From NCBI RefSeq assembly GCF_003185895.1, contig NZ_QHLY01000013.1, forward strand, positions 40,032 to 104,031: a DNA stretch of 64,000 bases, written 5' to 3'. Both the position numbers and the translations under genes were made by a program. Below, piece after piece: positions 16,124-63,539 of the stretch; the first letter of the stretch is position 1, and each line of letters begins with the position of its first letter. This DNA is from Cryobacterium arcticum (lineage in GTDB: Bacteria > Actinomycetota > Actinomycetes > Actinomycetales > Microbacteriaceae). The notes under the pieces were generated by a model. The model worked only from the letters and a program-made list of their open reading frames with translations. It had not been told where the DNA came from and made no database searches.

Positions 16124-18325
16124 ATGGTTTCACGCGCCCGGCACTCGCTCCTCGCACTTGGCACCGTCGTCGTCCTCGCTATCGCAGCCACGTTCACCGG
16201 AGCGCCTGCTCTGGCCGACACCGCTCCACCGGATGCGGGTACGCCCGCCACCGTCGCGGCCGATGCCCTGCCCACCCCGCAGATCAACGGAGTGGTGTGG
16301 GCCCAGCTGATCGTCGGCGACACGGTCTACGTCGGTGGTGAGTTCACCCGCGCCCGCCCGGCGGGGTCCGCCGCCGGGGTGAATGAGGTCGTCCGTAACA
16401 ACCTGCTGGCGTACACCCTCAGCACCGGGGTGCTCACCTCGTTCAATCCCAACGTCAACGGGGCTGTCCGTGCCCTGGTCGCCGCCACGGACAGCTCGCG
16501 GGTCTACGCCGGCGGCACCTTCACCTCGGTCGGGGGCGTCTCCCGCTACCGGCTCGCCGCATTCACCGCCTCGTCTGGCGCCCTCGTCACGTCCTGGGCT
16601 CCGCAGGTGAACGGTCGGGTCAGCGCCCTGGGCATCAGCAACACAGCGGTTTACGCCGGCGGCGCGTTCACTTCTGCCGGCGGGCAGGCCCGCCCGTACA
16701 TGGCCAGTTTCGCCACCTCCAACGGCGCGGTGCAGCCCTGGAAGGGCACTCCTGCAGGGGGCGGAGTAAACGCCATCACGGTCTCACCCGACGGCACCAA
16801 GGTCATCGTCGGTGGCGCCTTCACCTCCTACAACGGCGGCACCAACCCGGGTTACGGCATGGTGGCCACGAACGCGACCACCGGTGCGCCTTCGGCCTGG
16901 AAGGTGAACAGCGTCGTGCGCAACGGCGGCGCCAAAGCCGCCATTCTCAGCCTCACGTCCACGAGCGCCGGGGTCTTCGGCACCGGCTACGACTTCGGCA
17001 GCACCGGCAATTTCGAGGGCACTTTCCGCGCGACGTGGGCCGACGGCACCATCACCTGGCTCGAGGACTGTCACGGCGATACCTATTCGGCCGCGCCGAC
17101 CAACGACGTCGTCTACACCACCGGCCACACCCACTACTGCGGCAACATCGGCGGCTTCGGTGAGACCACCCCCCGGTCGTACCATCGCACGGTGTCCTTC
17201 TCGATGAACGCCACCGGCACGGTCGCGACCAACACGGTGCCGGGGTACTCCAATTTCGGTGGCAAGCCACGCCCGTCGCTGCTGACCTTCTACCCTGACA
17301 TCAACACCGGCACCTATACCGGCCAGGGTCAGGGACCGTGGACCGTGACCGCGAATTCTCAATACGTGCTTTACGGCGGAGAATTCACCATCGTCAACAA
17401 CAAGAAGCAGCAGGGTCTGGTGAGGTTTGCTGTATCCGCGATCGCGCCGGACAAGGAAGGACCTCGGCTCGCCGGCGCTGACTTCGTACCCACTCTCACC
17501 ACACCGAGTTCCGGATCGGTCACGGTGGCCTGGACCTCCAACTACGACCGGGACAACGAGCTGCTCACCTACGCCGTGCAGCGCGGCGGCGTGACGGTCA
17601 AGACCCTCACCGGCCGGTCGATGGACTGGAAGCGACCCGCGCTCAGCTGGACCGAAACCGGCCTGGCCGGCGGCACCTATTCGTACCGGATCAAGGTGAC
17701 CGATCCGTTCGGCAACACAAAGACCGGCAACGCCGCGAGCGTGACGGTAGCCAACGGCGCCGCCGCGAAGCGCCAAGCCGCCCCGGCCCCGGCCTTCCAG
17801 GCAACGATCACCGGCCTCGACGTGGCCGTCGACGCCACCTCGGTGACCTCAGCATCCGGAGCTCCTATCGTGAGCTACGCCTGGGACTTCGGTGACACAG
17901 CCACCGCAGCCGGTGTCACGGCCGGCCACCGGTACGCACAGGCGGGCAGCTACCCGGTGACGCTCACGGCCACCGACGCCGATGGGGTGAAGCTCAGCAT
18001 CACCCAGTCGGTCGATGTGACTGCGCCGCCGGCAGAGAACCCGGCGCCGAAGATCGACCCGGCTCCGGAGCAGGCCGTGCCCACGGTTCCGTCCCCGCAG
18101 GAACCGACGGGCGACACCCCGGCGACGGGCACCGTACCGAAGCCGTCCACCGCCACGCCCAGCCCGACACCGTCCTTGCCGGCACCTGTCGATCCGGCCG
18201 AGCCCCCGGCCGACTCTCCGGCAGAACCGGCAGACCCGCCGGCACCTGACGTCGTGCCGCTCGAGACCACTGTTGAGCTGCCCGCCGAGGACGCAGTCAC
18301 GCCGACGGCGACGACCGCCCGGTGA
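16124..18325 (+). CDS. Secreted propeller-like/PKD domain protein
   Basis: Exported protein of 733 residues. A signal peptide ends near residue 27 (ALADTAPP). Residues about 35-440 contain repeating VYVGGEFT/VYAGGTFT units about 45-50 residues apart, a delta-60-like beta-propeller pattern. An Fn3-like domain (about 455-545) is followed by a PKD domain (about 557-640, YAWDFGDTATA), then a Pro-rich tail of about 90 residues without LPXTG or a C-terminal membrane segment. GAGG lies seven bases before the ATG. The N-terminal 540 residues are closely related to the 1717-residue protein at 19270. A surface-matrix or glycan-binding role is inferred from location. Confidence 0.8.
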   Translation: MVSRARHSLLALGTVVVLAIAATFTGAPALADTAPPDAGTPATVAADALPTPQINGVVWAQLIVGDTVYVGGEFTRARPAGSAAGVNEVVRNNLLAYTLSTGVLTSFNPNVNGAVRALVAATDSSRVYAGGTFTSVGGVSRYRLAAFTASSGALVTSWAPQVNGRVSALGISNTAVYAGGAFTSAGGQARPYMASFATSNGAVQPWKGTPAGGGVNAITVSPDGTKVIVGGAFTSYNGGTNPGYGMVATNATTGAPSAWKVNSVVRNGGAKAAILSLTSTSAGVFGTGYDFGSTGNFEGTFRATWADGTITWLEDCHGDTYSAAPTNDVVYTTGHTHYCGNIGGFGETTPRSYHRTVSFSMNATGTVATNTVPGYSNFGGKPRPSLLTFYPDINTGTYTGQGQGPWTVTANSQYVLYGGEFTIVNNKKQQGLVRFAVSAIAPDKEGPRLAGADFVPTLTTPSSGSVTVAWTSNYDRDNELLTYAVQRGGVTVKTLTGRSMDWKRPALSWTETGLAGGTYSYRIKVTDPFGNTKTGNAASVTVANGAAAKRQAAPAPAFQATITGLDVAVDATSVTSASGAPIVSYAWDFGDTATAAGVTAGHRYAQAGSYPVTLTATDADGVKLSITQSVDVTAPPAENPAPKIDPAPEQAVPTVPSPQEPTGDTPATGTVPKPSTATPSPTPSLPAPVDPAEPPADSPAEPADPPAPDVVPLETTVELPAEDAVTPTATTAR

Positions 18326-18423
18326 CGCCCCTTGGCAGGTCGGCAAGACCGTGCCTAAATGACAGCACGAGCTAACCGATCGGCTCACCGACGCGAAGTG
18401 GCCTCAGCGGCAGGAGCCCGACC

Positions 18424-19134
18424 ATGGCATTAGATTCCCCGACGCCCCCCGACAACCAGCCCAACCGGCGGTGGCAGCGGCTCGGGCTCTCGGGAGTGAT
18501 CACGGCGGCGGTCCTGCTTCTCGGCGCGACCTTCTGGGTCTCCCAGGGAGGCGGTTCCCCGGTTTCCGGAGCCACGGGGGCGGCGAGCCCCGAAGCGTCC
18601 GCGTCCGATCCCGCCGCGGCACCGGACTCCACCGAACCGCCCGCGACGATTGTTCCGGCACCGAGCGCGGCGCCTGGCACGGATGCCCCAGCCCCCGAGG
18701 AATCCGAAGCCCCGGTCGAGGTGGCGCCGCTGGCCGAGCTGCGCCCTGTTCCGCTGACCGAGCAGGTCGCTCCGGTTCCCGGCGTTGTCTTCGGGATCGA
18801 TTCCCTCGAAGCCGTCGACGGCGTCGCCCAAGGCCCGGGGGAGGTGGGCGGACCCGCTTTACGGTTCACCCTGACCATGCGCAACGACACCGATGCCGAG
18901 GTGTCGCTCGCGGCTACCGTGGTCAACCTGTACGCCGGAGCCGACCAGCTGCCCATGGTCGATCTGCGGGAACCCGGCGGGATACCCCTGCCTGAGACCG
19001 TCGCCGCCGGCGCCACCGTCACGGGCGTCTTCGTCTTCGCGGTACCGACCGAGCAACGTGACCAGGTCAAGATCGGCGTCGACTACGTCGTCGGCGTTCC
19101 CATCGTGGTCTTCGAGGGCTCAGCCCCGCGATAG
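18424..19134 (+). CDS. Membrane-anchored protein with DUF4352-like domain
   Basis: Protein of 236 residues between the two related propeller proteins. A short cytoplasmic N-terminus is followed by one membrane segment (about 20-40), an acidic Ala/Pro/Glu linker (about 45-105), and an extracytoplasmic beta-rich domain with RFTLTMRNDTDAEVSL, resembling DUF4352 immunoglobulin-like domains. AGGAG lies seven bases before the ATG, a strong ribosome site. The topology resembles the protein at 62823-63539, though the outer domains differ. Function unknown; the position suggests a partner of the neighbouring secreted proteins. Confidence 0.7.
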   Translation: MALDSPTPPDNQPNRRWQRLGLSGVITAAVLLLGATFWVSQGGGSPVSGATGAASPEASASDPAAAPDSTEPPATIVPAPSAAPGTDAPAPEESEAPVEVAPLAELRPVPLTEQVAPVPGVVFGIDSLEAVDGVAQGPGEVGGPALRFTLTMRNDTDAEVSLAATVVNLYAGADQLPMVDLREPGGIPLPETVAAGATVTGVFVFAVPTEQRDQVKIGVDYVVGVPIVVFEGSAPR

Positions 19135-19269
19135 GCCTCTTCCGGCGCCCCGCCGCACGCGCGGCATTCGCCCCGAACTGGGGACATCGAACGCTGAATC
19201 TTCCTGACTACAGTCACACCGTGCGGTGGCCACCCGAAGGCCACGGTCCCGACCCGAACTGAGGCCTCC

Positions 19270-22200
19270 ATGGGCGCTCCGGCCCTTTCCCCGTCCCTGC
19301 TCGCCCGTCCGAACGCCGGCGGCAGGCTGCGCACGCTGCTCACAGCGGTGGTGGCCGTGGCCGCCCTCGTCGGGGGATTGGTGCTGTCGGCGCCGCCCGC
19401 CCGGGCCGACACCGCGCCGGATTCGGTCGGAACACCCAAGACCGTTGCGGCCGACGCCCTCCCGACGACGCAGATCAACGGCGTGGTCTGGTCCCAGGTG
19501 ATCGTGGGCAACACCGTGTACGTCGGCGGGGAATTCACCAGGGCCCGGCCGGCCGGAGCCGCTGCCGGCACCAGCGAGGTGGTGCGCAACAACCTCCTCG
19601 CCTATGACCTCAGCACGGGTGTCCTGACCGCCTCGTTCAACCCCAACGTCAACGGCACGGTGCGCTCCCTCGTCGCCTCGCCCGATGGAAGCCGGCTCTA
19701 CCTCGGCGGCACATTCACGCAGGTCGGCGGTGTTACCAGGTACCGGGTGGCGGCGATCAGCACCGCGACCGGAGCCCTCGTCACGTCCTGGGCCCCCCAG
19801 GTCAACGCGCGTGTCACCACGCTGGGCATGACGGCGTCGACGGTGTACGTGGGCGGCATCTTCTCCTCGGCCAACGGGGTCGCCCGTGAAGGCCTCGCCG
19901 CGTTCGCGACCAGCAACGGCGCCCTCAAGGCGTGGACCGGCACCCCGACCGGTGGCGGCATCAACGCACTCACCGTCTCGCCCGACGGCACGAAAGTCAT
20001 CGTCGGCGGCAGCTTCACGGCCTACAACGGCAGCTCCGACCCCGGCTACGGCATGGCCGCAACCGACGCCGTCACCGGCGCATCGCTGACCTGGAAGGTG
20101 AACTCCCTGGTTCGGAACGGCGGCCCGCAGGCATCCATCCTGAGCCTCACGTCGTCGGCCGAGGGCGTTTTCGGTACCGGCTACGTCTTCGGCACCGGCG
20201 GCAACCTCGAGGGCACGTTCCGGGCGAGCTGGGAGGACGGCACCCTGATCTGGCTGGAAGACTGCCACGGCGACACCTACTCCGCGGTACCGGTCCACGA
20301 CGTGGTCTACACGACCGGACATCCGCACTACTGCGGCAACATCGGCGGGTTCCCGCAGGCCAACCCGTGGACCTATCACCGCACCCTTGCCTTCGGGATG
20401 CAGGCTACGGGCACCATCACCGCTGACCCGCTCGGCTACTACAACTTCGCCGGCACCCCGAGGCCGAGCCTGCTCACCTTCTACCCCGACATCAACACGG
20501 GTACTTACACCGGGCAGGGCCAGGGACCGTGGAACGTCGCCGCCAATGACGACTACGTGCTCTACGGCGGTGAGTTCACCATCGTGAACAACAAGAAGCA
20601 GCAAGGCCTGGTGCGGTTCGCTTCAACCGCCATCGCCCCCAACAAGGAGGGCCCACGGCTCACCGGAGCAGATTTTGTGCCCTCGGTCGCCTCGTTCGTG
20701 GCGGGCAGCGCCCGGCTGAGTTGGCCGGCCAACTACGACCGGGACAACGAGAAGCTCAGCTATGAGGTGCTCCGCGACGGCGTGGTCGTCAAGACGCTCG
20801 TGGCCGCGTCCAGCGATTGGAACCGGCCGACCCTCAGCTGGACGGACTCCGGTCTCACCAACGGTGCGTCTTACTCCTATCGGTTGCGCGTCACCGACCC
20901 GCTCGGAAACTCCAAGACCGGTAATTCCGTGGCGGTCACCGTCGCCGCCGACGGCAGCCTGAGCTCGTACGCGGAAGCAGTCCTCGCCGACTCGGCGACG
21001 TCGTACTGGCCGCTGGGCGAGGCCAGCGGAACCGCAGCATTCGACTGGGCCACCGGAATCGACGCCACCGTCCAGGCCGGCGTGACCCGTGGAGTCCCTG
21101 GTGCCGTGATCGGCCACTCCGGCACTGCATCCCGGTTCGACGGCAGCGCAACCGGCTACGCGGTGACCGACACGGCCCAACCGTCCACTGACACGTTCAG
21201 CGTCGAAGCCTGGGTGAAGACCACCAGCACGACCGGCGGCAAGATCGTCGGTTTCGGTGACAGCCGCACCGGCACCTCGTCGTCGTACGACCGGCACGTC
21301 TACATGGACGGCTCAGGCAAGATCTGGTTCGGCGTCTACCCGGGCGGCGTGCGCACCGTGAACAGCTCCGCGTCGTACAACGATGGCCAGTGGCACCAGG
21401 TGGTCGCGACCCTCGGGTCCGCCGGAATGGCGCTCTACGTCGACGGCAAACGGATTGCCCAACGCGCCGACGTGACCAGCGCCCAGGGCTACTCGGGCTA
21501 CTGGCGCATCGGCGGTGACAACATCGGCGGCTGGCCGAACCAGCCCTCGACCGCCTTCATCGCCGCCGACATCGACGAGGTCTCCGTGTACCCGGCCCCG
21601 TTGAGCCTGGCCCAGGTGATCGCACACTACGAAGCCTCCGGCCGCACCTCGTCCGCCCCCGCGGCACCGACGGATGCCTACGGCAAGTCGGTCTACAACG
21701 CCGACCCCGACCTGTACTGGCGGCTGGGCGAGAGCTCCGGCACCGTCGCGGCCGACTCATCACGCTCACTGACCCCCGGCACGTATTCCGGCCAGGTCAG
21801 CCAGGGAGCGGCCGGCCTGGTCACCGGAACGCCGGACACCGCGGCCACTTTCAGTACCGGCATCGTCAGCAGCACTGTGCAGGTGAGCGACCCGCGCACC
21901 TACTCCCTCGAGGCCTGGTTCTCCACCACCAGCACCCAGGGTGGCAAGATCATCGGATTCGGTGACCAGCAAACCGGCCTCTCCGGCAACTACGACAGGC
22001 ACGTCTACCTGCAGGACGACGGCACCCTGGTCTTCGGTACCTGGACCGGAGCTACGAACACGATCACCACGCCGACCGCCTACAACGACGGCCGCCGGCA
22101 CCACGTGGTGGCGGTGCAATCCGGCGACGGCATGAAGCTCTACGTGGACGGCGCCATCGTCGGCACCAACCCGCAGACCTCCGCGCAGTCGTACTCCGGC

Positions 22201-24423
22201 TACTGGCGGGTCGGTGGAGATCCCACCTGGAGCTCGAGCAGCCCGTATTTCGCCGGCGTCATCGACGAGGTCGCCGTGTATTCCCGCGACATCGGCGCGA
22301 CGGTGATCCGCAACCACTTCACCACCGGCACGGCGGGCGAACCGGAGAACACTCTCCCGACGGCTGCCTTCGAGAGCACTGTCGACCACCTGGCCGTCAC
22401 CGTCGACGGCACCGCATCCGCTGACCCGGACGGTTCCATCGCCGGTTACTCCTGGGCGTTCGGGGACGGTGCCACCGCCACCGGTGCCACGGCCGATCAC
22501 ACCTACGCGGCCGCAGGAACGTACTCGGTCACCCTGACCGTGACCGACAACGACGGGGCCACCCAATCGATCAGCCATCCGGTCACCACGACGGCGTTGC
22601 CCGTGAACGAGGCGCCAACGGCCGCCTTCACGCTCACGGCCGCCAACCTCGCCGTGACCGTCGACGGGGCCACTTCCGTGGATGCCGACGGCACGATCGC
22701 CGGCTACGCGTGGACCTTCGGCGACGGCGCGACGGCAACGGGCGCCACCGCCCAGCACACCTACGCGACCGCGGGGGAGTACGAGGTCGGACTGACCGTG
22801 ACCGACAACACCGGTGCGAGCGGCAGCACAGCGCAGACCGTCACCGTTGCGGCGGCTCCGGTGGTGACAGCCCTGGCGACCGATGCCTTCGAGCGGGCGG
22901 TCACCGGCGGCCTCGGCCTCGCCGATCGGGGCGGCGCCTGGACCGTGAGCGGTTCGACCGCAAACTATTCGGTGTCCGGCGGCTCGGCCAAACTCCGGGC
23001 GCCGGCGGCCGGCGCAACCGTGACCGCCACGTTGCCGGGGGTGAGCGCCACCGACACCGAAGTGCGGGTTGCCGCCGCCCTGCAACAAGCCGCCACGGGC
23101 TCTGGCGCCTACCTGTCGGTGCTCGGCCGCAAGGTCGGCACAGACGACTACCGCGCCAGGGTCAAGGTCGCCGCAGGGGGCGCGGTGCAACTGCAGCTCC
23201 TGCACGGCGGTACGACCCTCCGAACGGCCAACATCGCCGGGCTGGTCTACGCCACCGGCGACCAGCTCAACATCGCCGTTCAGGTCACGGGCACCTCGCC
23301 GACGACCATCAGGGCCAAGGTCTGGCGGGCCGGGAGCGCCGAGCCGGCCGACTGGCAGGCAACGACCACCGACACCACCGCCGCCCTCCAGCAGGCCGGA
23401 ACGATCGGGCTCTCGCTGTACCTGGGTGGGACCGCTACCACCGCCCCGGTGACGGCAGCGTTCGACACCCTCTGGGCGGGACCGTCCGGCGCCACGCCGA
23501 CCCCGCCGACCCCGCCGACGCCGACGAACGTGGCCCCGGTCGCGGCCTTCAGCACATTGACGGCCGACCTCACCGTGACAGCGGATGCGTCCGGGTCCAC
23601 CGATTCCGACGGCACCATTGCCGGATACGCCTGGAATTTCGGTGACGGCACGACGGCCACCGGGGCCACCGTCAACCACGCCTACGTCGCGGCCGGCACC
23701 TATCCGGTGAGCCTCACCGTCACCGACGATGATGGCGCCGCCACCACCCTCGCGAAACAGGTCACCGTGACAGCACCGCCGCCGCCGCCCGCCGGCACCG
23801 ACCTCGCCAGGGATGCCTTCGGCCGCACCGTCGCCACCGGCCTCGGCACCGCGGAGGTGGGCGGCGCCTGGTCGATCACCGGGTCCAGCGCGAATTACAG
23901 CGTCGGGAGCGGCACCGCAACCCTCCGCTCGCCCGCCGTCGGGGCGATGGAGACCGCCCGACTGGCCACAGTCTCCTCGACGGCCACCGATGTCGGGGTC
24001 GTCGCCGCGGTGCAGCAGGCCGCTACCGGATCCGGCACCTACGTGTCGGTGCTGGGTCGCACCGTCGGGGCTGACGACTACCGGGCCAGGGTGCGGTTGA
24101 ACGCCGACGGCACCGTGACACTGCAGATCATGCGCGGTGCCACCGCACTGCGGTCCCTCCTGGTGCCGGGGCTCACCCCGGCCGTCGGCCAGCCGCTGGC
24201 GATCCGGCTGCAGGTCACCGGCACGGCACCGACCACTCTCCGCGCCAAGGTCTGGGTCGCCGGCCAGGCCGAGCCGGCCGCCTGGCAGCTGACCGGTACC
24301 GACGCGACCGCGGCGATGCAGGTTCCCGGCGGTGTCGGAATCGCCCTCTACCTCGGCGGATCATCCACCATCACGCCGGTCACCGCCCGGTTCGACGACC
24401 TTCTGGCCAAGCCGCTGCCATGA
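19270..24423 (+). CDS. Giant secreted multidomain protein (propeller, LamG, PKD)
   Basis: Exported protein of 1717 residues. A signal peptide ends near 45 (PARADTAP). Then come a delta-60-like propeller (about 55-480) and Fn3-like domain paralogous to the protein at 16124; two LamG/concanavalin-like domains (about 566-785 and 810-1015); two PKD domains (about 1030-1110 and 1113-1195); a 200-residue jelly-roll-like module (about 1199-1405); a third PKD (about 1420-1503); and a second copy of the 200-residue module (about 1510-1717). LamG and PKD modules usually bind sugars or proteins. No sorting motif. Its stop overlaps the next glycosyltransferase start (ATGA), tying production to EPS synthesis. 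Confidence 0.85.
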   Translation: MGAPALSPSLLARPNAGGRLRTLLTAVVAVAALVGGLVLSAPPARADTAPDSVGTPKTVAADALPTTQINGVVWSQVIVGNTVYVGGEFTRARPAGAAAGTSEVVRNNLLAYDLSTGVLTASFNPNVNGTVRSLVASPDGSRLYLGGTFTQVGGVTRYRVAAISTATGALVTSWAPQVNARVTTLGMTASTVYVGGIFSSANGVAREGLAAFATSNGALKAWTGTPTGGGINALTVSPDGTKVIVGGSFTAYNGSSDPGYGMAATDAVTGASLTWKVNSLVRNGGPQASILSLTSSAEGVFGTGYVFGTGGNLEGTFRASWEDGTLIWLEDCHGDTYSAVPVHDVVYTTGHPHYCGNIGGFPQANPWTYHRTLAFGMQATGTITADPLGYYNFAGTPRPSLLTFYPDINTGTYTGQGQGPWNVAANDDYVLYGGEFTIVNNKKQQGLVRFASTAIAPNKEGPRLTGADFVPSVASFVAGSARLSWPANYDRDNEKLSYEVLRDGVVVKTLVAASSDWNRPTLSWTDSGLTNGASYSYRLRVTDPLGNSKTGNSVAVTVAADGSLSSYAEAVLADSATSYWPLGEASGTAAFDWATGIDATVQAGVTRGVPGAVIGHSGTASRFDGSATGYAVTDTAQPSTDTFSVEAWVKTTSTTGGKIVGFGDSRTGTSSSYDRHVYMDGSGKIWFGVYPGGVRTVNSSASYNDGQWHQVVATLGSAGMALYVDGKRIAQRADVTSAQGYSGYWRIGGDNIGGWPNQPSTAFIAADIDEVSVYPAPLSLAQVIAHYEASGRTSSAPAAPTDAYGKSVYNADPDLYWRLGESSGTVAADSSRSLTPGTYSGQVSQGAAGLVTGTPDTAATFSTGIVSSTVQVSDPRTYSLEAWFSTTSTQGGKIIGFGDQQTGLSGNYDRHVYLQDDGTLVFGTWTGATNTITTPTAYNDGRRHHVVAVQSGDGMKLYVDGAIVGTNPQTSAQSYSGYWRVGGDPTWSSSSPYFAGVIDEVAVYSRDIGATVIRNHFTTGTAGEPENTLPTAAFESTVDHLAVTVDGTASADPDGSIAGYSWAFGDGATATGATADHTYAAAGTYSVTLTVTDNDGATQSISHPVTTTALPVNEAPTAAFTLTAANLAVTVDGATSVDADGTIAGYAWTFGDGATATGATAQHTYATAGEYEVGLTVTDNTGASGSTAQTVTVAAAPVVTALATDAFERAVTGGLGLADRGGAWTVSGSTANYSVSGGSAKLRAPAAGATVTATLPGVSATDTEVRVAAALQQAATGSGAYLSVLGRKVGTDDYRARVKVAAGGAVQLQLLHGGTTLRTANIAGLVYATGDQLNIAVQVTGTSPTTIRAKVWRAGSAEPADWQATTTDTTAALQQAGTIGLSLYLGGTATTAPVTAAFDTLWAGPSGATPTPPTPPTPTNVAPVAAFSTLTADLTVTADASGSTDSDGTIAGYAWNFGDGTTATGATVNHAYVAAGTYPVSLTVTDDDGAATTLAKQVTVTAPPPPPAGTDLARDAFGRTVATGLGTAEVGGAWSITGSSANYSVGSGTATLRSPAVGAMETARLATVSSTATDVGVVAAVQQAATGSGTYVSVLGRTVGADDYRARVRLNADGTVTLQIMRGATALRSLLVPGLTPAVGQPLAIRLQVTGTAPTTLRAKVWVAGQAEPAAWQLTGTDATAAMQVPGGVGIALYLGGSSTITPVTARFDDLLAKPLP

Positions 24424-33192: not shown

Positions 33193-34782
33193 TCAGTAAG
33201 CCCCCAGTGGTCGGATGATGATTTTGAAGGTGCGCCAGATGATCATCAGATCGCCGGCCAGCGACCAGTTCTCGACGTAGTAGAGGTCGAGTCGCACGCT
33301 TTCCTCCCAGCTGAGGTCAGATCGGCCGTTGACCTGCCACATGCCGGTGAGACCAGGCTTGATGTACAGGCGGCGATGCATGTGCGACTCGTAGTTCTTC
33401 ACCTCGTCCGGCAGCGGCGGGCGCGGGCCGACGAGGCTCATCTGGCCGACCACGATGTTCCACAGCTGGGGGAGTTCGTCGAGGGAGTATTTGCGCAGCA
33501 CCCGGCCGACCCTGGTGATGCGGGGGTCGCTGCGGATCTTGAAGAGCACGCCGACGCCCTCGTTCTGGTCGAGCAGGCCGGCCAGGTCGTCTTCGGCGGT
33601 GCGCACCATCGACCGAAGCTTCAGCATGCGGAAGGGCCGCCCGTTCCGGCCGATGCGTTCCTGCCGAAAGAGCACAGGGCCAGGGCTGTCCAGTTTCACC
33701 AGCAGCCCGATCACGAGGAGCACCGGGCTCACCAGGATCAGCGCCGCTCCGCCCAGGATCATATCGAGGGCCCGTTTGAGCACGTGCTTGGCCCCGTCGT
33801 ATTGCGGGATCTCGACGTGGATCAGGGGCAACCCTTCCACCGGGCGGAAATGGATGCGCGGGCCGGCGACATCTGTCAGCCGGCTGGACAGCACGAGTTC
33901 GGCCGAGGTCTTCTCGAGGTCCCAGCCCAGGTTGCGGATGAAGGTGTTACCGAGGCTCGGGTGCCCGGCGACGATGACGGCGTCGACTCCGAGTGACTGC
34001 GCAGCGGCTGCGACGTGCGCGAAATCGGACACGACCGGAACATCCTGACCGGCCGAGAGCACGCTGGTCGTACTGTCGCCTTCCAGGGCGGCCCCGACCA
34101 CTTGGTAGGCGGCCCCAGATTTCTCATTGATCTGCCGCACGACGTATTCAACGTCGTCCCGCCCGCCGACGACGATGGCCCTGGCCAGGTAGTGGCCGAA
34201 ACGGCGTTGCCGGATCAACCACTTGCGCCACAGCCAGCGCTCCAGGATGAGCGCGGCGACACCCAGCGGCAGCGCGAATACGAAATAGGCCCTCGCGGTG
34301 TCGACCTGCAAGAGGAGGAAGAGGATGGCAAGCATGCCGAAGGCCAGAGCGCTCGCGTTGATGACGAGCTTGTACTCGGTCGCGCCGACCCCGACGATCC
34401 GCGCGTCCCGGGTGCGGAAGGTGCCGAGGGTGATGATCCAGGCGATGGCCACGACCGCGGTCACAGCCCAGGTGGACGGGGGGATCAGCGAGGGGTCGGA
34501 GACCGGGTTGATCAGCGTGAACCTGGCGATGAATGCCACCGTGACGGCGGACGCAATCACCGCGGAGTCCGTGAGCGTGAGTCGAGTGCGGTATTGCCGG
34601 GCCCAGGCGGCTCCGGACAGTCCGACCGCTGGTGGCGCGGCCGGGAGAGACCCCGGCTGTGCTGCACCGGCCGGACCGGTTTGCACGGGTCCGGTTGCCG
34701 CGGGGCGCACCAGGCGCAGCGGCGCCCGATACCCGGCCGGAACGCTGTCGGACAGCGGGGACTCCGGCTTCGGCGTGCTCAT
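33193..34782 (-). CDS. Exopolysaccharide polyprenyl glycosylphosphotransferase
   Basis: Initiating enzyme that puts the first sugar-1-phosphate onto undecaprenyl phosphate, 529 residues. Four hydrophobic helices (about 50-165) form the N-terminal membrane domain, then a CoA-binding-like domain, a further membrane segment (about 345-370) and the catalytic bacterial sugar transferase domain with KRALDMILGG, SPGPVLFRQERIG, FRMLKLRSM and the late PGLTGMWQVNGRSD. First gene of the seven-gene minus operon. The ATG at 34782 has GGAG unusually far upstream (12 nt). A 21-bp dyad at 34911 lies upstream. The only such enzyme in the window, so both polymerase sets may depend on it. Confidence 0.93.
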   Translation of the reverse strand: MSTPKPESPLSDSVPAGYRAPLRLVRPAATGPVQTGPAGAAQPGSLPAAPPAVGLSGAAWARQYRTRLTLTDSAVIASAVTVAFIARFTLINPVSDPSLIPPSTWAVTAVVAIAWIITLGTFRTRDARIVGVGATEYKLVINASALAFGMLAILFLLLQVDTARAYFVFALPLGVAALILERWLWRKWLIRQRRFGHYLARAIVVGGRDDVEYVVRQINEKSGAAYQVVGAALEGDSTTSVLSAGQDVPVVSDFAHVAAAAQSLGVDAVIVAGHPSLGNTFIRNLGWDLEKTSAELVLSSRLTDVAGPRIHFRPVEGLPLIHVEIPQYDGAKHVLKRALDMILGGAALILVSPVLLVIGLLVKLDSPGPVLFRQERIGRNGRPFRMLKLRSMVRTAEDDLAGLLDQNEGVGVLFKIRSDPRITRVGRVLRKYSLDELPQLWNIVVGQMSLVGPRPPLPDEVKNYESHMHRRLYIKPGLTGMWQVNGRSDLSWEESVRLDLYYVENWSLAGDLMIIWRTFKIIIRPLGAY

Positions 34783-34910
34783 CGTCGACCGGCACTCCGG
34801 GCCGGATCAGGGCAGGCAGAGCGCGAGGCCCGGCTGCGGAACGGGGGCAGCTGGAGCTTTTGGGGTCGACCAATAGGCCGACACGTCACTGACGTATTCA
34901 CGGTGGGTCC

Positions 34911-34931
34911 CCTGCAGTTCGGGTTTACAGG
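34911..34931 (-). promoter_or_regulatory. EPS operon element, copy 1 (imperfect 21-bp dyad)
   Basis: On the minus strand it reads CCTGTA-N9-TGCAGG with N9 = AACCCGAAC. It lies about 130 bp upstream of the sugar transferase start. The same element, with one mismatch over 24 bp, occurs at 62542-62562 upstream of the other minus EPS operon, in the same orientation and with matching flanks. Probably an operator or promoter-proximal site for a shared regulator. Confidence 0.6.
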
Positions 34932-35004
34932 TTCAGGCGGGTGATGGAACTGATGGTGCAGTCGAACGCCGGGTGGGTGGCCCTGCGTCCGGAATGGCAG
35001 TGTC

Positions 35005-35040
35005 GGGTAAGACGGGTAAGACAGGTAAGACGGGTAAGCG
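35005..35040. repeat. Four-unit 9-bp tandem repeat
   Basis: Units GGGTAAGAC, GGGTAAGAC, AGGTAAGAC and GGGTAAGCG follow each other without gaps in the divergent EPS control region. The first two are identical; the third and fourth differ by one and two bases. It could be a cluster of binding sites or a length-variable repeat. Confidence 0.75.
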
Positions 35041-35203
35041 GAACGACGGAATGAGCCGGAGCCGAGCGAGGTGGCACAGGTACGGATGTGACGGGTGGGG
35101 CGGATCTGACTGATGCTCAGCGACTCACGAGGTGAACATACCCTGCAAGTCGTTTTTGTCGCTGTGACCTGAACAGGGGCCAGTTCCGGGCCCCGCGATC
35201 ACC

Positions 35204-35230
35204 CCCCCTGTTGGGGGACTGCGGTTTTTT
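35204..35230 (+). terminator. Hairpin plus T-tract ahead of the plus EPS operon
   Basis: CCCCC (35204-35208) pairs with GGGGG (35213-35217) over a TGTT loop, followed after seven bases by TTTTTT (35225-35230). It sits about 110 bp before the first gene of the plus operon, so it could act as an attenuator if transcription starts upstream. The stem is short. Confidence 0.35.
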
Positions 35231-35337
35231 CCGGGCGGTGCCACTCTGGGCGGGTGAGCGACCCTCACTTTCTGTCCTGGTCGCTGTGCTCCTCCAGCCC
35301 TCCCGCCACCTTCAGCCTTCTAGCCATTGGGGTAACA

Positions 35338-60618: not shown

Positions 60619-61860
60619 TCAGTCGCCGGTTTCTGGGGCCGGAGCGTTCGTCTGTCCTGGGCCCCAGGCGTAGACGAGCCAGCCGAGTTCGTAGGGGCGG
60701 CACTCGTGGTCGATCCGGTTGGCCGGCAGCATTGCGTCCATGCCGGGCAGGTGCCAGTCCGGGCGGATCGAGGTCGTCACCGCGGAGAGCTTTCGCGCGG
60801 CCTTCGCGGGCTCCCGGCGGCCGACCTTGCGCCAGACCTGCGCCCAATGGGGGGAAACGAGATCGTCGAGCACCTCCGGGTGGCGCTCCAGCCAGTGCAG
60901 CCCCAATCGGATGGCGTCACCATGGTCGTCGCCTCCGGCCGCAGCCAGGTCACCCAGCGCCATGGGGGCCATCGCGTGCTGGTGCACGCTGTACACCGGG
61001 TAGCCCTCGACGACGGTGCCCAGGCGTGCGTCATAGTGCCACCACCACTGGCCGGCGGGTCCTTGCAGGGTGCAGATGCGACGCGCGGCCACGTTCGCGG
61101 CCGTCAGAGCGACCGAGTCGTCGGTGAGTCCGGCCAGTCGGGCGAGAGCCTGGATCGGGTACACCTGGTCGGCGAAACAGCCGATGTGAGCTCGCCAGCG
61201 CCCCAGCGACCTGGCCGGCAGGGCGTGCGGAAAGATCCCGGTCGGCCCCTGTGCGGCCAGGAGGCGGTCGCGGGCCAACTGCGCGATGCGTCCGGCCAGC
61301 CGGCTGCCCGGCTGCCCACCCGACTGGCCCGCGACTGCCGCGGTGAGCATCCACGCGACATCGACCGTCGGCAGCGGATGCGCGCCGGTGAGCAGTCTCT
61401 CGAGGCGCTCAAGCAAGCCGTTGTCCGGTGCGCCGCCGGCTTCGGCGGCGGCCCACGCCGCGAGGGCAACAGCACCGGGGTCGGCATCGTGCCTGGCTTC
61501 CGCAGACACCGCGCCGACCAGCCCCGGTAGGCCGAGAGGACCGAGCACCCTGTTCTGGTCGGCGCTGCCCAGTCTGGCCAGGCCCAGGGCGACGATGGCG
61601 GCGTAGCGCAGGCTCTGGCCTTCTCTGACCAATTCGATCCGTTGCGGCCCGCGCACTGCGCGCATGGTCTGGGCGAATCTGCCGCCGGCAATGAACGATG
61701 CGGACAGTCCGCGCACGGCGAGCTCCACCAGGGCGTCCACCTGCGGAGGACGGCCGCCCGGGGCGTCGGCGTGCGCGGCGGGTTTCGTGGGGGGCGGGGT
61801 GGCGCCGCCCGGGTCGGGCAGGGCCTGGTGCGCTGCGGATGCGGGGGAGGGGATGGTCAT
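60619..61860 (-). CDS. Alpha/alpha-toroid-like protein of unknown function
   Basis: Protein of 413 residues, not assigned to a function. An Ala/Pro-rich N-terminus (about 45 residues) is followed by helical repeats suggestive of an alpha/alpha toroid as in prenyltransferases, terpene cyclases or GH-like barrels: ALVELAVRGLSASFI, QSLRYAAIVALGLARL, VDVAWMLTAAVAG, CFADQVYPIQALARLA and QWWWHYDARLGTVVEGYPVYS, the last with clustered aromatic residues and possible acid/His catalytic groups. No signal peptide. It lies between the WbpD-like acyltransferase (ATGA overlap) and the WecG-type transferase, so a cytoplasmic role in glycan processing or control is possible. Confidence 0.6.
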   Translation of the reverse strand: MTIPSPASAAHQALPDPGGATPPPTKPAAHADAPGGRPPQVDALVELAVRGLSASFIAGGRFAQTMRAVRGPQRIELVREGQSLRYAAIVALGLARLGSADQNRVLGPLGLPGLVGAVSAEARHDADPGAVALAAWAAAEAGGAPDNGLLERLERLLTGAHPLPTVDVAWMLTAAVAGQSGGQPGSRLAGRIAQLARDRLLAAQGPTGIFPHALPARSLGRWRAHIGCFADQVYPIQALARLAGLTDDSVALTAANVAARRICTLQGPAGQWWWHYDARLGTVVEGYPVYSVHQHAMAPMALGDLAAAGGDDHGDAIRLGLHWLERHPEVLDDLVSPHWAQVWRKVGRREPAKAARKLSAVTTSIRPDWHLPGMDAMLPANRIDHECRPYELGWLVYAWGPGQTNAPAPETGD

Positions 61861-62441
61861 TGGAGTGTCAGCTGCCCGTCGTGTTCGAGGTAACGCTCGC
61901 CGGTCACCGGGCAACTGAACTCTGCGGCACTCTCTCGCCGGAGCGGCATACCGCTGCGACCCACCCAGCCCACCTGTCGAGCGGGAACACCGCGCACCAG
62001 GGCGAAATCCGGCACGTCCCTGGTGACAACGGCCCCGGCCGCCACCATGGCCCACCGCCCGATTGTCACCGGGGCGACGCAGACCGCACGGGCTCCGACT
62101 GACGCACCCGTGCGCACGGTGACACCCACCAGCACCCAATCGTGGGCCGACTTCCTCGAGCCGTCCACGTTGATCGCTCGCGGGAACTGGTCGTTGGTGA
62201 AAACGGCGGCGGGGCCGACGAACACTCCGTCCTCCAGGAGGGCGGGTTCGTAGATGAGCGCGTAGTTCTGCACTTTGCAGTTCTTGCCCAGAATGACGCC
62301 AGGGCCGATATAGGCGCCGCGACCGACGATGCAACCGGGCCCGAGCAGGGCGTATTCACGTACCTGGCCGAGGTGCCAGATGGCACTGCCGGGGCCGATC
62401 ACGGCCGTGGGGTCGATGTCGGCTGAGGTTGCGATCTCCAT
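61857..62441 (-). CDS. WbpD/WlbB-like sugar N-acetyltransferase
   Basis: Left-handed beta-helix acyltransferase of 194 residues. Hexapeptide coils (IDPTAVIGPGSAIWHLGQV, GVILGKNCKVQNYALIYE), the catalytic-region GPAAVFTNDQFPRAI and the closing GVPARQVGWVG are close to WbpD/WlbB, which acetylates the 3-amino group of UDP-GlcNAc3NA. Substrate could come from the WbpB-like and WbpE-like enzymes of the plus operon. The last about 35 residues (CPVTGERYLEHDGQL) are an addition to the family core. First gene of the minus operon; ATG 62441 has only a weak ribosome site. The shared dyad element lies 100 bp upstream. Confidence 0.83.
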   Translation of the reverse strand: MEIATSADIDPTAVIGPGSAIWHLGQVREYALLGPGCIVGRGAYIGPGVILGKNCKVQNYALIYEPALLEDGVFVGPAAVFTNDQFPRAINVDGSRKSAHDWVLVGVTVRTGASVGARAVCVAPVTIGRWAMVAAGAVVTRDVPDFALVRGVPARQVGWVGRSGMPLRRESAAEFSCPVTGERYLEHDGQLTLQ

Positions 62442-62822
62442 CAGCGCGCCCGGGCCCGGTCTGGTCGGGTGGTGCGCACGGACGTGCCGATGCTCGCTTG
62501 GAGGAGGGTGTTGGGGGTTAGAGGTACAGTCACGGTGATTCCCTGCAGTTCGGGTGTACAGGTTGCGTCGGGTGGTCCGCCACCCGGAAACCGTGTTGCT
62601 TCCGGACGGGGAAGGTGCCACTAACTGACGATCTCTCAGCTTGGTACCACCAGAACATACTCGGTTGGGTAGGGGGCCGCTGTGACCCGTTCGGGGGCGA
62701 GTAATGCCGCCCCGGTCGGCAGTTTTGCGCCCCGATACCCCGCGAACGAGGGTCGCAGGGCCGGAGCGACCCGGCTACTGTCTGCAGCGACGCCGCCGAG
62801 TCGATCGAGAGGGGGTCTGCCG
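62442..62822. other. 381-bp divergent region at the right end of the EPS cluster
   Basis: Separates the minus EPS operon from the membrane-anchored protein gene. Contains the dyad element copy 2 (62542-62562) and an in-frame leader from GTG 62682 that has weaker third-position G/C than the downstream gene. No other gene seen. Confidence 0.55.
62542..62562 (-). promoter_or_regulatory. EPS operon element, copy 2 (imperfect 21-bp dyad)
   Basis: Minus-strand reading CCTGTA-N9-TGCAGG with N9 = CACCCGAAC, differing by one base from copy 1 at 34911-34931. Same orientation, about 100 bp upstream of the WbpD-like gene. Flanks ACGGTG and CGGGTG on the plus strand are also conserved at nearly the same distance. 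Confidence 0.6.
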
Positions 62823-63539
62823 TTGAGCGCATCCACTCGCCGCCGCGGGCTGCTTGTCGGCGTGGTGCTACTGGGCGCTGCGGCCGTCGGTATTGTCGGC
62901 GCCGCCTTCTGGCCCGTCGGCGGCCATGATGTGGCCGGCGGACCGGTGTCGACGGAAGCCGTCGCGACCGAGACACCGGTACCAGCCGATTCCGGCCCCA
63001 CGGAAACGCCCCGAGCCGGCGAGGATCCCGCCGCAACGCCAGACCCCAGAGACGGCGACGCCGTGACGGCGGAACCGCCAACCGGTGACGCCGCGGCAGG
63101 TCCGGATGCCGGGGCCGAAGTGCTCCCGCCGGTCGAGTCCGACCCCGGCGTGCCCGCGCTGCCGCCGTCCGATCCGATTCCCCCCTTGCTGCAAGCGCCG
63201 GCGCCGGACACTGCAACGGCAGAGGGCGCACTCGTCGACGGATTCCCCACGTTCCTCACCCCAGCGCCTTCGTCCACGGTGGCGGCGTCGATGGTGGCCT
63301 CGGAGGGTGCCAATGTGCAGGCCGCATTCTCGGCCACCAGCACCAACACCGTCGAGGCAGTGCAGGACTACTTCGACGGGATCTTCGCAGCACTGGCCCT
63401 GCATCCCACCCAGGCTCCGGCCGTCGGCGGGTCGACAGCCTGGGCGTACTCCCGGGGTGCCGAAAGCGTCACGGTGACGCTGACCCCGACAGCCGGGGGT
63501 TGCGACTACTCGATCCTGGCCACCCTTGTCGCCGTCTGA
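62823..63539 (+). CDS. Membrane-anchored protein of unknown function
   Basis: Protein of 238 residues. A short Arg-rich N-terminus (STRRRG) precedes one membrane segment (about 8-30), then an acidic Pro/Thr/Ala linker (about 35-150) and a small extracytoplasmic C-terminal domain (about 160-238) with TSTNTVEAVQDYFDGIF and one late cysteine. Not recognised. Start TTG 62823 has GAGGGGG seven bases upstream; GTG 62682 would add 47 residues with weaker codon bias. Similar in topology to the 236-residue protein at 18424. Divergent from the EPS operon, so a link to EPS is uncertain. Confidence 0.6.
   Translation: MSASTRRRGLLVGVVLLGAAAVGIVGAAFWPVGGHDVAGGPVSTEAVATETPVPADSGPTETPRAGEDPAATPDPRDGDAVTAEPPTGDAAAGPDAGAEVLPPVESDPGVPALPPSDPIPPLLQAPAPDTATAEGALVDGFPTFLTPAPSSTVAASMVASEGANVQAAFSATSTNTVEAVQDYFDGIFAALALHPTQAPAVGGSTAWAYSRGAESVTVTLTPTAGGCDYSILATLVAV

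Follow-up and report, generated by a model that had tools for sequence, protein, structure and literature searches.

Targets of CsrA/RsmA present GGA in the loops of hairpins that cover the ribosome-binding site. Polysaccharide operons can also be preceded by a short conserved sequence, as with JUMPstart/ops and RfaH, and the EAR RNA is an RNA element of Bacillus eps operons. The hairpin in LoaP leaders is of the UNCG type according to PMC12691694, and PMC4833913 describes leader genes with coupling or attenuation in which the stop of a short ORF overlaps or adjoins the start of the structural gene.

The locus considered here is a block that occurs twice within the window, the whole 64,000-nucleotide stretch of DNA that was analysed. 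As at CsrA/RsmA targets, a predicted hairpin lies at the ribosome-binding site of surface-polysaccharide genes and a motif repeated along the leader is placed in loops, but the motif is ACCCGA instead of GGA, and 17 of the 57 genomes with the element lacked a CsrA match. Like those of JUMPstart/ops-RfaH and LoaP, the present element is short, conserved, and placed ahead of polysaccharide or other long operons, but it differs from them in lying at the start codon. The leader ORF stops at the structural-gene start, as in leader genes with translational coupling or attenuation, but here the conserved part is a hairpin before the ORF, and a separate leader ORF is absent from about eight of the 69 copies. 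The candidate resembles the EAR RNA as an RNA element tied to an EPS operon, yet unlike it corresponds to no Rfam family at the gathering score in the window (0 matches); a search of six loci gave two weak, unrelated matches below that score (E up to 5).

The block likely belongs to a leader RNA in which a hairpin, P1, gates a coupled leader ORF, and it is probably not a DNA operator. Transcription would start at a promoter upstream of the block, and in the RNA the block would fold into P1, the 3' arm of which holds a weak ribosome-binding sequence (GCAGG). The leader ORF would start 8 to 9 nt after P1, its end would overlap the start codon of the first EPS gene, and its ribosomes would go on to that gene. 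With P1 closed, the leader ORF and the EPS gene would be poorly translated; with P1 opened, or remodelled by a factor reading the CCCGA loop, the operon would be expressed. Poor translation may also be converted into low transcription by Rho, which would terminate within the C-rich leader left untranslated. In this way, P1 probably helps to set the amount of sugar coat that is made. The sequence evidence consists of family-wide conservation, position, coupling geometry, sense-strand ACCCGA, and CCCGA loops elsewhere; the rest we infer, namely transcription through the block, a limiting role of P1 in initiation, a trans-acting protein or small RNA on the loop, and the sign of the effect.

A leader RNA of surface-glycan operons in Microbacteriaceae is probably undescribed. 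A literature search with few subscription papers within reach yielded none describing the element and none on leader-RNA control of exopolysaccharide in Microbacteriaceae. With its conservation and defined loop motif, such a leader predicts a regulon, can serve as bait for a trans-acting factor, and allows control of EPS at the RNA level to be examined in simple reporter fusions. The preliminary description of this DNA had proposed an EPS regulon with a DNA operator; the regulon idea stands, and the operator idea probably does not.

Two copies of the block precede EPS operons

Near-identical 24-bp blocks in the same orientation, 100 to 130 bp from the starts of two EPS operons, had been reported in the preliminary description, and this was borne out. 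CCCTGCAGTTCGGGTTTACAGGTT (34910-34933) and CCCTGCAGTTCGGGTGTACAGGTT (62541-62564) lie on the same strand and differ by one base, and minus-strand ATGs at 34782 and 62441 agree with the distances from block to first gene (approximately 128 and 100 nt). A GTG, which the preliminary description does not mention, is found 9 nt (copy 1) and 8 nt (copy 2) after the element. When the window was scanned for same-strand pairs of 24-mers with at most one mismatch, seven groups were obtained, and the six besides the block were inside ORFs. Two large adjoining ORFs at 16124-24423 (plus strand) have four near-identical 24-mers in common at a constant offset of ∼3.19 kb and therefore look like paralogues. 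A genome-wide dyad scan, which had been suggested as a check, gave exact matches only at the two EPS sites: CCTGYA-N9-TRCAGG without mismatch had two matches in the 64-kb window and two in the complete genome (4,305,516 bases, 13 contigs), against none for the reversed control. With two mismatches allowed, 13 matches were found in the window against 6.8 expected; specificity is therefore confined to the exact dyad form. The features of both loci are collected in Table 1.

Table 1. Coordinates and properties of the features at the two EPS loci
Feature	Coordinates	Strand	Remarks
Element copy 1, hairpin P1, CCUGUA-AACCCGAAC-UGCAGG	34911..34931	-	Predicted fold, -7 kcal/mol
Element copy 2, hairpin P1, CCUGUA-CACCCGAAC-UGCAGG	62542..62562	-	Predicted fold, -6.4 kcal/mol
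Leader ORF 1, GTG start, 40 codons, VNTSVTCRPIGRPQ...	34779..34901	-	ATGA, 4-nt overlap with next ATG
Leader ORF 2, GTG start, 30 codons, VTVPLTPNTLLQ...	62441..62533	-	TGATG, 1-nt overlap with next ATG
Possible hairpin in leader ORF 1, AUACGUC-AGU-GACGUGU	34881-34897	-	Predicted
Possible hairpin in leader ORF 1, GUCGGC-CUAUUG-GUCGAC	34865-34882	-	Predicted; 2-nt overlap with the hairpin at 34881-34897
Promoter -10-like GTATGTTC, copy 1	35134..35141	-	∼205 nt upstream of P1
Promoter -10-like GTATGTTC, copy 2	62653..62660	-	∼95 nt upstream of P1
Upstream box CCCCTGTTCAGGTCACAGCG, copy 1	35160..35179	-	-35 region, candidate regulator site
Upstream box CCCCCGAACGGGTCACAGCG, copy 2	62678..62697	-	-35 region, candidate regulator site
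First gene of EPS operon 1, sugar transferase (PF02397)	33193..34782	-	E 1.2e-68; followed by a glycosyltransferase
First gene of EPS operon 2, hexapeptide-repeat transferase (PF00132)	61857..62441	-	Cluster with UDP-sugar dehydrogenase

Distribution of the element and the genes behind it

In a draw of 60 genomes, with Cryobacterium as the sole Microbacteriaceae genus, the block with up to three mismatches was detected in 15 genomes, this one included (18 matches, compared with 2 for the reversed control). These amounted to 15 of 37 Cryobacterium genomes and 0 of 23 from other families. Among the 36 other Cryobacterium genomes, 22 had no match at this threshold, and at least 4 of these 22 carried a 20-nt variant. 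A search of 84,980 species, one genome each, with the exact degenerate pattern yielded 27 stretches, every one of them from Microbacteriaceae: 16 from Cryobacterium, 4 from Rathayibacter, 3 from Leifsonia, and 1 each from Galbitalea, Glaciibacter, Glaciihabitans, and Microterricola. Of 398 family genomes searched with a covariance model (E 0.1), 57 had matches, and these represented 22 of 85 genera. After their context was read, approximately 50 element-positive genomes from 17 genera were retained, a count that includes one doubtful genome (G099) and three (G314, G384, and G434) counted without context reading.

From a set of 100 matches, eight were dropped as chance on context (L088, L094, L098, L099, L101, L102, L104, and L106). 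None of the 40 covariance-model matches with E ≤1e-3 was dropped, and L093 was retained as a doubtful copy. The 77 distinct copies were reduced to 69 non-redundant copies (<70% flank identity) and to 67 after a second, upstream-sequence filter. A third match in this genome (C13:60591) overlaps a 603-codon ORF. In an order-wide search of 396 genomes, other families yielded 16 matches in 15 genomes (E ≤0.03 per genome), approximately the chance level. Twelve of the 16 were read, of which 11 overlap an ORF of at least 150 codons on one strand and none has the whole architecture before a surface-glycan gene. Of the other-family matches, L119 lies just before a gene read as ribosomal protein L20, and L120 has a GTG nearby. 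Viral contigs gave no element match. Among the genomes searched, the element has been found so far only in Microbacteriaceae.

The genes following the 69 non-redundant copies were assigned by Pfam (E 0.001) to PF02397 (50), hexapeptide transferases (6), glycosyltransferases (2), a cytidylyltransferase (1), and a GMC oxidoreductase (1), and 9 had no Pfam family at that threshold. The main ORFs were picked by coupling or length, with those of L013 and L062 set by hand. Conservation in relatives, the other check suggested for the block, was confirmed: it is kept and is located before surface-glycan genes. The 50 PF02397 proteins and 6 hexapeptide transferases encoded next to it support the proposal of an EPS regulon, so far undescribed, to which this conserved element belongs. 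Because most copies precede one gene family, the conservation may partly reflect shared descent; the two copies of this genome precede different gene families.

The next gene in L078 was considered as a Wzz-type protein and dropped, as Pfam gives no family. Proteins of a family of ∼380 to 410 residues follow the element in L070 (1529-2659, plus strand), L074, L081, and L047; the two tested (L070 and L081) had no Pfam match. Divergent from EPS operon 2 lies a protein gene without a Pfam match (62823-63539, plus strand). Proteins similar in build to its product (hydrophobic N-terminus, Pro/Thr-rich) occur after the element in L035, and one in L172 adjoins an ACCCGA-rich stretch.

The element is linked to a start codon and a coupled leader ORF

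Of the 69 non-redundant copies, 63 had an ATG or GTG 7 to 10 nt after CAGG, compared with 2 to 6 of 69 at seven shifted offsets. Within 6 to 13 nt after the element, a start codon was found in 69/69 copies (52 GTG, 16 ATG, and 1 TTG), a figure that is partly conditional because the eight dropped matches were judged partly on a missing leader start. Three of those eight have a start codon 3 to 13 nt after the arm. In several genera, the Shine-Dalgarno sequence after CAGG is poor.

A short leader ORF was opened by 60 of the 69 copies and was 40 to 42 codons long in 25 of them. The leader ORF overlapped the next long ORF by 4 nt in 42/60 and ended within -10 to +7 of it in 53/60, compared with 14/120 and 18/120, respectively, in the other two frames; of these 120 control-frame reads, 13 lacked a stop and 18 were longer than 150 codons. 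The leader stop therefore overlaps or touches the next start beyond chance, as expected of a translationally coupled leader ORF. In the copies without a separate leader ORF, the main ORF follows the element directly. L062 and L066 were scored from an ATG, though a TTG gives the leader of their relatives L043 and L044, so the number of such copies is about eight rather than nine; the leader calls in L070 and L074 are ambiguous. Since these copies lie directly before the main ORF, a separate leader peptide is not essential, which points to the hairpin, not the leader peptide, as the regulated part.

Hairpin P1 and a DNA operator compared

Read as RNA, the element would pair CCUGUA with UGCAGG around a near-invariant CCCGA loop. 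Its total length in the 77 copies was 21 nt in 55, 20 nt in 18, and 22 nt in 4, and CCCGA was as conserved as the arms. These data bear on the operator of the preliminary description, in which a dimeric transcription factor would bind the 24-bp dyad. The conserved dyad arms and the two copies before two operons of one theme would fit such a site, as would the half-sites, which we take to be reminiscent of lux-type boxes. However, the arms are not more conserved than the spacer and the spacing is not fixed: the asymmetric centre is conserved to the same degree, and the total length varies from 20 to 22 nt. The position is moreover linked to the start codon, a promoter-like module lies upstream of the block, the ACCCGA repeats strongly favor one strand, and in other genera the loop motif is carried by unrelated stems (see below). 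A DNA operator is therefore quite unlikely.

In the P1 stem, 97% of cells pair, compared with 17 to 46% in slid controls; four of the six pairs are near-invariant, and 83 of 500 shuffles pair equally well. The sole two-sided change comes from the doubtful copy L093, and the covariation of P1 is weak. Its stability is similar to that of shuffled sequence (z 0.04 and -0.11), and whole leaders are no more stable than shuffles (z -0.79 and -0.11). A hairpin with a score of at least 6 was present in the first 60 nt of the leader ORF in 29 of 59 cases, compared with 4.2 in shuffles (maximum 11). Fourteen of these 29 hairpins begin 17 to 21 nt past the start codon, with differing sequences that each pair, such as GUCGAC/GUCGAC, CGUCGGC/GCCGACG, and CGCCGAGU/GCUCGGCG. 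Window copy 2 has no leader-ORF hairpin of the strength of those in copy 1. The hairpins of leader ORFs and of diverged leaders, having differing stems, were judged against shuffles rather than on a tree. The case for an RNA element, as read from these sequences, rests on position, strand bias, and the diverged leaders.

ACCCGA repeats, CCCGA loops, and candidate trans-acting factors

Upstream of the element in the 67 copies, ACCCGA was observed 33 times in the sense and 4 times in the antisense orientation. Before 30 sugar-transferase matches from other genera, the counts were 29 sense and 2 antisense. These homologues came from genomes without a match to the first model, four of them carry diverged canonical copies, and "upstream" refers here to the 300 to 400 nt before the protein match, some coding sequence included. 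The background in 149 other upstream regions of this genome, based on rough gene calls, was 17 sense versus 16 antisense. Triple ACCCGA repeats were also sought in 30 genomes and were mostly simple repeats; a control pattern matched too, and none occurred in this genome. Approximately four tandem 9-mers like CTTACCCGT lie in leader 1 at 35001-35038 (minus strand), roughly 100 nt downstream of the -10.

In the 26 remaining homologues, CCCGAA was placed in a loop in 5 of 25 occurrences at a stem score of at least 5 (flank shuffles, 1.27; maximum 5 in 200 rounds) and in 4 of 25 at a score of at least 6 (0.52; maximum 4). All 60 permutations of the hexamer, CCCGAA included, gave a mean of 0.47 in loops of 5.4 occurrences. 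The excess is small and involves few loci, some of which were first picked by eye and then counted. In L142, a 13-bp stem surrounds ACCCGAA (z -5.6), and in L146 three open CCCGA loops are borne by strong stems. The sequence CUGC-AACCCGA-GCAG in L144 is accompanied by a GTG 6 nt after CAGG, and the 32-codon leader there shares 4 nt with a GTG that is in frame with the transferase.

The C-rich sequence of the leader also raises a second reading, in which it acts mainly via Rho: the untranslated leader would be a Rho site, translation of the leader ORF would protect it, and the CCCGA repeats would serve in Rho loading. The C-over-G skew of leader 1, 0.278 over 336 nt, exceeds the 99% quantile of 150-nt windows of the 64-kb window (0.254), the region 12 to 110 nt after the element is 41% C and 25% G (67 copies), and leader 1, counting P1, contains ACCCG seven times. 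The skew of leader 2 is lower (0.206), however, a skew of >0.30 is reached by 5% of other upstream regions, and the preference for one hexamer, its placement in hairpin loops, and the conservation of P1 would be left unexplained. This reading is compatible with the leader-RNA explanation and is in itself possible, if somewhat unlikely.

The CCCGA loops are probably bound by a trans-acting factor. Such a factor is plausible, but as an RNA-binding one. More specifically, and tentatively, since we hold it to be slightly less than probable, an RNA-binding regulator of Microbacteriaceae (protein or small RNA) may read the ACCCGA loops, often several per leader, and control surface-glycan operons via the ribosome-binding-site hairpin and the coupled leader ORF; it would correspond in function to CsrA/Rsm but recognize another motif. 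Examination of NusG-family and CsrA matches revealed no trans-acting factor. A single PF02357 match per genome was found in 40 genomes (25 Cryobacterium, this one included, and 15 from other families), and an RfaH- or LoaP-like paralogue is therefore not supported in Cryobacterium.

CsrA itself, bound to the leader at the ribosome-binding sequence, is highly improbable. It is encoded in this genome (C9:445349-445504) and in 40 of the 57 element-positive genomes covered by the search (5 further ones lie outside it), and A-N-G-G-A follows the stem in 24 of 40 CsrA-positive genomes against 3 of 14 genomes (P 0.028, uncorrected for descent). This association, however, tracks genus lines and was not counted as evidence, and the genomes without a CsrA match include all 5 g67 and all 8 g56 genomes searched. 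Window copy 1 is without A-N-G-G-A, which between CAGG and 12 nt beyond it was not found in 27 of 54 tabulated genomes, and the conserved loop is CCCGA, not GGA.

A promoter-like module upstream of the element

Upstream of both window copies lies a further shared block (35116-35179 and 62635-62697, minus strand), which the preliminary description likewise does not mention. It contains a promoter-like module composed of a C-rich box ending in GGTCACAGC, a -10 that resembles TATGGT or TATGTT, and CTGAG. The -10 with CTGAG was found upstream of 31 of 67 copies in the sense and of none in the antisense orientation, compared with 2.0 in local shuffles (maximum 6), at 57 to 209 nt from the element; this form is missing in the other 36 copies. 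Box, -10, and CTGAG occurred together in 21/67, all Cryobacterium. These patterns were derived from the very sequences scored. The core GGTCACAGC-N15-23-GTATG was found in this genome only at the two copies, while the 10-mer GGTCACAGCG alone was unspecific (16 in the genome versus 11 for a control).

The module also bears on the possibility that the arms of the dyad are themselves the -35 and -10 of an alternative sigma factor, with the mRNA starting at the GTG and the leader ORF leaderless. Leaderless short ORFs are known in mycobacteria. The distance from arm to start codon is approximately that needed for a leaderless start, there is no strong Shine-Dalgarno sequence, and standard -35/-10 pairs in the 160 nt upstream hardly exceed shuffles (9/69 versus 5.8). 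Against this, the promoter-like module lies further upstream in 31/67 copies, CCCGA would have no role between the arms, at a variable distance from both, and the loop motif is found on unrelated stems. We regard such a promoter as very unlikely and a leader RNA transcribed from further upstream as the better reading.

Near copy 1, a palindrome, CCCCCCCTGTTGGGGGAC (35202-35219, plus strand), resembles the EPS promoter box and precedes a divergent gene at 35254, which encodes a Gfo/Idh/MocA-type oxidoreductase. One regulator may act in both directions.
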